A DNA stretch of 64,000 nt, from assembly GCA_027972325.1 (NCBI GenBank), contig JAPMOS010000004.1, positions 744,001-808,000 of the forward strand. Direction: 5' to 3'. The number at the start of each line of letters is the position of its first letter. Within the stretch, counting starts at the first letter, position 1. The notes under the pieces were generated by a model. The model saw only the letters and a program-made list of their open reading frames with translations, was not told where the DNA came from and did no database searches. The position numbers and the translations under genes were made by a program. The stretch is from Paratrimastix pyriformis. Its lineage: Eukaryota > Preaxostyla > Paratrimastigidae. Positions 24,473-36,161 of this stretch are shown here, piece after piece.

Positions 24473-27400
24473 TCAGGGACGGCATACCGAGTGAGGATGG
24501 GCTCCGACAATCGTCGGGTGCGCGTGTGCGTGCGAGGGAGGAGCGGGTCGGGCCGGCGGTGGGGGATGCAGACCAGGCGCCTCGCTGCCCGGCTGGTCGC
24601 GGGGTCCCGCCGCCGCCCCAGCCTGGTCACTGTCTACCACCTCGGCCCCCTCCTCCTCGCCCTCCTCATCGACCTCGTCCTCCTCCGCGCCCTCAGCCGC
24701 CGCGGCAGCCGCAGCAGCAGCCGCCATCTCGGCCTCTTCTTGTGCCTTGCGCTCGCGGGCCTTGCGTTCCATCTCCTCGCGGGCGGCCTTCTCCTCCTTG
24801 TCCCGCTCGATCTCCGAGGCGGGCCGGAGGGCCACGTCGGGCGGGGCGTGGCCCTGGCGGATGGCCTCCTGGTAAAGGTTGGCGTACTCGCGGTCGGAGC
24901 CCTTGATGTGATGCAGCAGCCAGTCGACCTGCCCGCAAGCACGCACACACCCCATCCCATACACAGATGATTGTTACTGTCACTTCGGCCTCGCTGCTTC
25001 CCCCCCCCCGACTTTGCCCGTTCTGCTCTGACACAGAAATCGGAACCACGCGCCCGGGAACCGAACATCGGAATGGGTCGCCAGCAAATGAGATGCCTCT
25101 GTACCCCCGTGCCCGTGCCCGTGCATCACGATTTGAATGGCCTTCCCTGATGATCGTTTGCCGCCCAGCTCACTCGGTGATCCGGAAAAGGGAGCGCCGT
25201 CCGTTTGTTTCCCGTGCCGTGCGAAGGCGGGTCGACGGGTTGGGGGGCGCGGTTGCCGGACCAGGAAGCGCATCAGCTTGAAGTCGGCCCCGGGTTCGTT
25301 CCGCTTCCAGGCGTCCGCGTGCCGCAGGACCGACTGATGAGGCCCAGACGAACACCATGGAGGAGGAGGAGGAAGAAGAATACGGGGTGTGAGATCGTGG
25401 GCTCTGCGTGTGTGTACGTGTGTGTGGAGGGGGTGGGGGGGGGGGGGGGGGGGGGGGTGCGGGCCTTGACGAGGGCCTCGTGCTCCTTCTTGTGGCCGGG
25501 CAGCCCCGGGAACCCCAGAGCCTCCATCAGGATTTCCTGGGGGTGCAGGGAAGGGAGGGAGGGAGGGAGGGAGGGAGAGAGGGGGAGGGAGGGAGGGAGG
25601 CGAGCAGGGCAGGTCAGCGCCATGTGGGCAACGGACAGATCGAGGCGATGGAGGTGCCGGGTTGGTGGGATGATGGGGGGTCATCATCCCAATCATCATC
25701 ACATCCAATCATCCCCTCATCATCCCAATCATCCCAGCATCATCCCAATCAACATCAAGGCGGATGGATGCGGACCTCGTCCTTGAAGTGGACCAGGGTG
25801 TACTGCACCAGGCCGCCGAAGATCTCCGAGATGTACTCGCGGGCCTGCTGGGTGATCATGCTCCGGTACCTGAGCCATCCCCCCCGGCCCACACCACCAG
25901 TCGGGGACCCGGACCCACGTCAGTGAGCGATGCGAGGAGACGAGCGGTGGGGTGGGAACATCAGTGGGGTCGGAGCAGCCATCCCTCCATCCCTCCAGCC
26001 AGCCGGAGGGGGGGCGTGGCGGTGTCGGGGCGGACATGTCATTGGCCAGCTCGACCAGCCTGTGGTGCTGCTGGTCGACGGCCGGGACGCCCAGCTGGAC
26101 GGTCTCGTCCCAGTGCATCAGCTCGGTGTTGCTGTCGAGCGGGGGCACCATGGTGAGCATCCGGCGGGTCATGTCGGACTCCTTCTGCAGGATGCTGTTG
26201 GCCCCGCGGAAGAAGCACACGTCCACCAGCAGCTGCACAAGCAGCATCGACGAGAGCACAGACAGCACCAGCGCCAGAACCTGCGAACCGGCGGCACAGA
26301 CGACACAGACACAGACACAGACACAGACACAGACACAGACACAGACACAGACAGACAGACAGACAGACAGACAGACAGACAGACAGACAGACAGACAGAC
26401 AGACAGACAGACAGACAGACAGACAGACAGACAGACAGACAGACAGACAGACAGACAGACGCACAGACGCACAGACGCACAGACGCACAGACGCACAGAC
26501 GCACAGACGCACAGACGCACAGACGCACCCGCAGGGGCCCAGAATGAGCATTGTGGAGCGACTGTGGTTGTGACTGGAGCTGCGTGGCGGCTGACTTGTG
26601 GTGGATCGTGTTGTGGTCATGTGGTTGTGGTCATGTGGTTGTGGTTGTGGGCTGGGACGGACTGTGGTTGCCTGGGTCAGGCCCTCGCCCGCCAGGATGA
26701 AGGTCACCCGCTCGAGCCCGTCGCGCATGTCGCCCTGCCACCCCACAAACCACCCAAAGCAGAAAACGGCAGCGCCCAAGGGGGGCAGGGCGAGGATAGC
26801 GGGAAACCAACAGAAAAGCAGAGCGGATGAGCCGGGGGCACAGCCACCAAACTGCCCGGGGGGAGGTGCTGCCCGGGGGGGGGGGGGGGGGGGGGGATGG
26901 TGGGCAGGGGAGGGGAGGGGAGGGGGCGGGACCTGGGCGAGGGCCAGCAGCTGCGCGAAGTCGGTGAAGTTGCTCAGGGCGGCCAGGGGGGCGGCCGGGC
27001 TGGGGTTCCCGTAGGGCGGCAGCCGGCCCAGGGCGGCCAGGCGACGCCCCTTGGCCCCGAAGACGTCCACCAGGCCCTGGAGACCCGTCTGCAGAGGCAC
27101 CATGTCGGGCAGCCGGTCCGCCAGGCAGCCCGCCTGGAGCGAGGTTGATGGTGGGTGGGTGGGTGGGTGGGTGGGTGGGTGGGGAGGTATGAGTGCAGAC
27201 GGGCACAGGCGGAGATGAGGGATGTGGAGATGGTGATGGGACGGGGGTGGAGGTGGGGGAGGTGGAGGTGGGGAGTGCTGGGCGTTGGAATGAACGGAAG
27301 TGGGCCAAGAGAGTCGCCTGGAACGGTGGACGGCGTCTGATGGCGCCGGTGGTGTGGGGGGGGACTCGCAGCCGGTCGGGGCAGCCAGACCGCGTCCCAG

Positions 27401-36161: not shown

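Follow-up and report, generated by a model that had tools for sequence, protein, structure and literature searches.

The window analyzed here, a 64,000-nucleotide stretch of Paratrimastix pyriformis DNA (contig JAPMOS010000004.1 of assembly GCA_027972325.1, positions 744,001 to 808,000), carries on its minus strand, from 36161 to 24473, one many-exon gene predicted to encode a TmcB-type membrane protein fused to a C-terminal hemerythrin domain. Both strands were translated and exons were drafted by open reading frame and splice site, which gave a model that begins with an ATG at 36161 (with another ATG in the same frame at 36083) and closes with a stop codon ending at 24473. These ends match the gene limits of the original prediction, to which the strand is now added, and part of the gene is deposited as PAPYR_1373. 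The draft contains two frame discontinuities, at about 35.46 to 35.40 kb and at about 27.52 kb, the second of which is crossed by other splices in PAPYR_1373. Its first intron would be only 26 nucleotides long, and it omits a low-complexity stretch at about 30.6 to 29.4 kb that is present in the deposited model.

Several N-terminal membrane segments are a feature of TmcB proteins, and the six that had been predicted were recovered as six hydropathy peaks in exons 35895-35460, 35396-35306, 35209-35075, 34930-34793, and 34741-34507. The TmcB TPR repeats follow in exons 33753-33616, 33494-33451, 33238-33100, 32843-32739, and 32557-32428, with an own-genome match at C332:776429. The profile search that had been proposed for these half-TPR repeats placed the gene far above the curated cutoff of PF25474 (95.2 bits versus a cutoff of 27; E value, 3.5e-27). 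Four later membrane segments were also expected; segments 8 (exon 31156-30752), 9 (exon 28719-28577), and 10 exceed the hydropathy threshold, and segment 7 (exon 32144-31931) was placed by eye. Segment 10, the juxtamembrane residues, and helix A of the hemerythrin with the first His ligand are all encoded by a single exon, 26280-26036, in which the QHH motif is found. The remainder of the domain is distributed over exons 25869-25776 (helix B; HFKDE, with His and Glu ligands), 25536-25465 (helix C; HKKEH, with two His ligands), 25333-25262 (between helices C and D), and 24928-24473 (helix D; HHIKGSD, in which HIKGSD provides His and Asp ligands, followed by a low-complexity C-terminal tail).

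Hemerythrin domains bind oxygen by means of iron and are most familiar from bacteria. The profile searches proposed for the C-terminal domain exceeded the cutoffs of PF01814 (51.5 bits; cutoff, 25.3; E value, 1.8e-13), of the bacteriohemerythrin model NF033749 (120.3 bits; cutoff, 84; E value, 5.7e-35), and of TIGR02481 (112.4 bits; cutoff, 51.75; E value, 1.4e-32). The domain also matches the hemerythrin signature H-HxxxE-HxxxH-HxxxxD, described as five His, one Glu, and one Asp (PMC9388753), with all seven di-iron ligands present, a pattern found in 1 of 20,000 shuffles of the same domain. The earlier claim of a complete hemerythrin with every ligand class is thereby upheld. Among solved structures, the DcrH hemerythrin (2avk; E value, 6.6e-18) is the best match, and in the alignment of the two, H19, H56, E60, H75, H79, H115, and D120 (domain numbering) are paired with identical DcrH residues. 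The one relative among 16 matched stretches in a prokaryote scan is a single-domain hemerythrin from a Trichlorobacter MAG (35% identical).

PAPYR_1373, a model made independently of the draft, is deposited as one gene that runs from 32.85 kb, inside the TPR region, to 24.23 kb, its end at 24234 differing from the 24473 of the draft. It includes all hemerythrin exons except the 72-base exon of helix C, reads through the intron 5′ of helix D, and has PF25474 as its only precomputed domain, with no hemerythrin. A tblastn search of PAPYR_1373 on the window yielded 21 pieces, ten of them 100% identical and the rest 63 to 99% identical, which we attribute to alignments that extend over splice joints. 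GC donors occur at 4 of the 25 draft introns. At the end of exon 26734-26672, we think that the GT donor nine bases further on, as used in PAPYR_1373, is better than the GC of the draft, and the revision leaves 3 of 25, at the ends of exons 25536-25465 (the helix C exon), 33238-33100, and 32843-32739. Where GTRAGT would be usual, GTCCG or GCCCG stands at 16 of the 25 splice donors of the draft. Gene finders that expect GT would miss exons with GC donors, so annotation can lose such domains.

Both parts of the gene were searched for in the 56.06-Mb assembly of P. pyriformis (published genome size, 56.6 Mb; PMC10703272). PF25474 identified at least 25 loci, and TIGR02481 gave 38 hemerythrin exon matches at E values up to 1, which group into about 30 loci; a single match lies above the TIGR02481 cutoff, as expected because the domain is split into short exons. 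An exon-by-exon search with PF01814 detected one hemerythrin locus only, and it is TIGR02481 together with own-protein searches that reveals the about 30. Of the 25 TmcB loci, 22 are followed downstream on the same strand by a hemerythrin exon match, at a distance of 4.2 to 17.4 kb (0.15 loci expected by chance). Same-strand upstream matches (4/25) and opposite-strand downstream matches (3/25) are taken for neighboring copies. The nearest hemerythrin matches at the 22 linked loci are single exons with E values from 2.3e-5 to 0.28, many of them weak, and one, C68:482505, crosses two TGA stops. The longest gaps between the two parts, on C4 (17.4 kb) and C52 (15.4 kb), could hold another gene. 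TmcB loci with no downstream hemerythrin match are C288:110072, C190:458142, and C38:33425; 11 kb downstream of the last is a match to the C474-type membrane linker (C38:44381; E value, 5e-4).

Ten of the 38 TIGR02481 matches, in seven places, have no upstream PF25474 match. A profile built from 18 TPR stretches of this genome was applied to four of the seven (C13:98k, C13:77k, C474:625k, and C79:477k) and found same-strand upstream TPR exons at all four and none in a shuffled control, and N-terminal membrane exons were also recognized on C79 by comparison with the window draft (6.4e-14). The linked total is 26 of about 30 hemerythrin loci, leaving out C4:58k, C79:407k, C57:206k, and C474:603k, the last of which is linked only via a TmcB locus that lies at a distance of 17 kb and is paired with a closer hemerythrin match. 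Collectively, the shared exon 26280-26036, the deposited model that spans both parts, and the recurrence at other loci support the TmcB-hemerythrin fusion at the level of sequence. A one-off fusion or an assembly accident is ruled out by recurrence across the genome. The number of distinct fusion genes may be lower than 26 because some loci are near-identical copies (among them the TPR peptides of L004/L005 and L013/L015), which may be recent duplicates or haplotypes. Pairs of identical or near-identical TPR peptides were observed in tandem (C48:58388/C48:69341), on different contigs (C52:28432/C462:178840), and in inverted orientation (C68:471251/C68:498517).

A protein search with the TPR region (907 candidates) returned only PAPYR_1373 and Chlamydomonas schloesseri HYH02_008955 (E value, 1.9e-7), one of the protist TmcB/TmcC membrane proteins (PF25474). 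Both proteins have TPR repeats above the cutoff and several membrane segments; the algal protein, however, has PAS domains, while the window protein ends in hemerythrin. No PAS domain was listed in the scanned parts of the window gene. PAS_9, the one PAS model run against the genome, matched three times, twice above the cutoff and never near a TmcB locus, but this was an exon-by-exon search of the kind that found one of about 30 hemerythrin loci with PF01814, so PAS could be missed. The distribution of PAS_9 therefore lends weak support to the original suggestion that hemerythrin may replace PAS as the sensory module.

A search with the hemerythrin domain of a paralogue (118 candidates) retrieved three long bacterial receptors that combine MCP, HAMP, and hemerythrin, which is the arrangement of DcrH. 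The window protein resembles such methyl-accepting chemotaxis proteins (2avk) as a putative membrane receptor whose C terminus is a bacteriohemerythrin that is probably cytosolic, and differs from them in its TmcB body, its about ten membrane segments, and the absence of a recognized MCP or HAMP. PF00015, the MCP signaling domain, was found neither in the scanned pieces nor among the domains of PAPYR_1373, a model that covers the middle part of the gene. DcrH is described as having a cytosolic C-terminal hemerythrin with a measured O2 Kd of 0.3 µM and as having been proposed to act in negative aerotaxis, and Bhr-DGC as an example of redox control of an output (PMC9388753). In a survey of 2,521 genomes, no named hemerythrin architecture is more frequent than the receptor fusion, with 33 proteins, and O2-binding hemerythrins are reported from 4 of 135 eukaryotes, namely Naegleria, Acanthamoeba, Micromonas, and Nematostella, with long forms only in Naegleria gruberi and Nematostella vectensis among the four (PMC4919030). 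These proteins share with the window protein an O2-binding type of hemerythrin domain in a eukaryote; unlike in P. pyriformis, no TmcB part is mentioned for them in the available portion of that survey.

The content of Lys and Arg around segments 7 to 10 alternates in accordance with the positive-inside rule: the fraction is high ahead of segment 7 (0.142), in loop 8-9 (0.139), and after segment 10 (0.138) and low in loops 7-8 (0.056) and 9-10 (0.064). From the N to the C terminus, sequons in these five intervals number 0, 3, 1, 2, and 0, which places five of the six within the two loops predicted to lie outside. On the basis of these charges and the sequon distribution, the TPR repeats and the hemerythrin domain are predicted to share one side of the membrane, the cytosolic one.

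We consider it probable that these genes represent a family of P. pyriformis membrane receptors in which a cytosolic C-terminal bacteriohemerythrin, with a putative metal center, would bind and signal the presence of O2 or report an O2-set redox state. In the original prediction of a transmembrane oxygen sensor, the fusion and the ligand set are the parts that now stand on firm ground, and sensing is the likeliest reading, suggested by the parallel with DcrH, the type of domain, and the prediction that it lies in the cytosol. We hypothesize that the seven-ligand site would hold a di-iron center and that O2 entering the cell could bind or oxidize it, by analogy with DcrH and Bhr-DGC. Helix A and membrane helix 10 are encoded by the same exon and joined by a short link, along which the resulting change might travel into helix 10 and on to those loops and TmcB repeats that are predicted to face the same side; the output may be oxygen avoidance or another oxygen response. 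Further cues might be sensed by the two loops that are predicted to face outward, as happens in chemotaxis receptors. The scanned parts of the window protein showed no recognizable output domain with a known chemistry. A non-heme sensor would make sense in this flagellate because Preaxostyla are described as living at low oxygen and lacking a heme synthesis pathway (PMC10703272). A broader proposal, which we hold with somewhat more doubt than belief, is that hemerythrin forms the end of nearly all members of the TmcB family (about 26 linked loci). These would make up an array of heme-free transmembrane O2 sensors that direct the cell to avoid oxygen, the equivalent of DcrH in a eukaryote, and would have stayed hidden because gene models overlook short exons and exons with GC donors.

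The same domain could instead scavenge or store O2 or NO at the membrane and buffer O2 for oxygen-labile enzymes with no role in signaling. Such a function would be in keeping with the low-oxygen lifestyle of the organism and with Campylobacter jejuni, in which hemerythrins are reported to help protect iron-sulfur enzymes (PMC4257069). Scavenging, however, suits an abundant soluble protein, whereas the 26 linked hemerythrin loci sit behind TmcB repeats (the four others fall outside this test), and a carrier with ten membrane segments would presumably be costly, which makes this explanation rather unlikely. An iron sensor, in which the domain would report iron supply and O2 would affect only its occupancy, has its models in the FBXL5 and BRUTUS/HRZ E3 ligases. 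These are also eukaryotic fusions with a hemerythrin-like domain that acts as a sensor, but they are described as ubiquitin ligases for iron homeostasis. FBXL5 and BRUTUS are soluble and contain F-box/LRR or RING domains, none of which was found in the scanned window pieces or among the domains of PAPYR_1373. Plant hemerythrin E3 ligases are reported to bind di-iron centers and are taken as iron sensors (PMC12022348), yet the score of the window domain above the cutoff of the bacteriohemerythrin subfamily (NF033749) argues against this comparison, and we regard an iron sensor as unlikely.

Hemerythrin peptides were read at eleven loci, the rest of the family being represented by exon matches alone. 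Six of the ten loci that were run through the signature pattern carry it in full (the window, C79:477k, two on C90, and two on C135). C190 fails the pattern at helix D, where, as in helix C, the splice joints are uncertain. The helix B His is replaced by Ala at C13:98k (98.5k) and C474:591k and by Thr at C474:615k, a peptide read outside the ten scored loci, and C474:625k keeps this His and has lost the helix D spacing. The domains with Ala or Thr in helix B possibly constitute a second functional type. All five paralogue domains that were scanned exceed the PF01814 and TIGR02481 cutoffs; for NF033749 (cutoff, 84), C79:477k passes with 132.7 bits and the other four score 55.0 to 78.9 bits. The loss of the helix B His at three loci and of the helix D spacing at one, together with the weak single-exon matches behind the linked loci and the stop codons at C68:482505, could point to a structural or degenerate four-helix tail that serves folding or dimerization and lacks a working metal site in most members. 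We think this quite improbable, as the seven ligands are kept at six loci, and for three of these a comparison with the window domain gave identities of 46, 21, and 30%. The remaining explanation, two adjacent genes wrongly joined, would be in keeping with the two frame discontinuities in the draft but is rejected as hardly credible because helix 10 and helix A lie in one exon and the order of TmcB and hemerythrin recurs at 22 of 25 loci, and PAPYR_1373 spans both parts.

What is known already comprises both parts of the protein and the bacterial membrane receptors with hemerythrin tails; what is new is the eukaryotic host, the TmcB body, and the multigene family. PAPYR_1373 was the sole match in one protein search (672 candidates), and no TmcB-hemerythrin fusion was found in another organism in three protein searches, which also missed the other fusions of P. 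pyriformis itself. The fusion appears to be undescribed, as had been supposed: no publication with both TmcB and hemerythrin, or with both Paratrimastix pyriformis and hemerythrin, was found in a literature search that leaves most subscription journals outside its range, and nothing on a protist TmcB protein was among the matches listed. The word "hemerythrin" does not occur in the main text of PMC10703272. Hemerythrin in combination with Metamonada led to a paper concerned with the alternative oxidase of Naegleria (PMC9540462), and in combination with oxygen sensor, transmembrane, and protist to a survey from 2008 (PMC2556348). If the receptor reading is true, bacteria and a eukaryote would share the solution of ending a membrane receptor in hemerythrin, though on receptor bodies that differ. 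To our knowledge, the detection of oxygen by anaerobic eukaryotes is little understood, and a heme-free receptor family with a recognizable di-iron site would provide a concrete O2-sensor candidate open to testing with a single soluble domain.

Several other features were observed in the window. A divergent RRM gene (RRM_1; 6e-5), which we take to resemble ABT1/Esf2, starts on the plus strand at about 36173. The two genes may share one promoter because their starts are only about 12 or 90 bases apart, depending on which ATG the fusion gene uses. A tRNA-Gln (TTG) gene is located on the plus strand at 32627-32700, antisense within an intron of the fusion gene, and long microsatellites occupy introns at 28353-28513, 31743-31860, 33793-33867, and 26296-26524 (three perfect hexamer arrays and one imperfect array of the ACAG type). 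Elsewhere in the window, an open reading frame with WD40-type repeats (1.7e-7) is found at 1470-4541 on the plus strand and one with a PAP2 domain (7.2e-14) at 46013-47356 on the minus strand.
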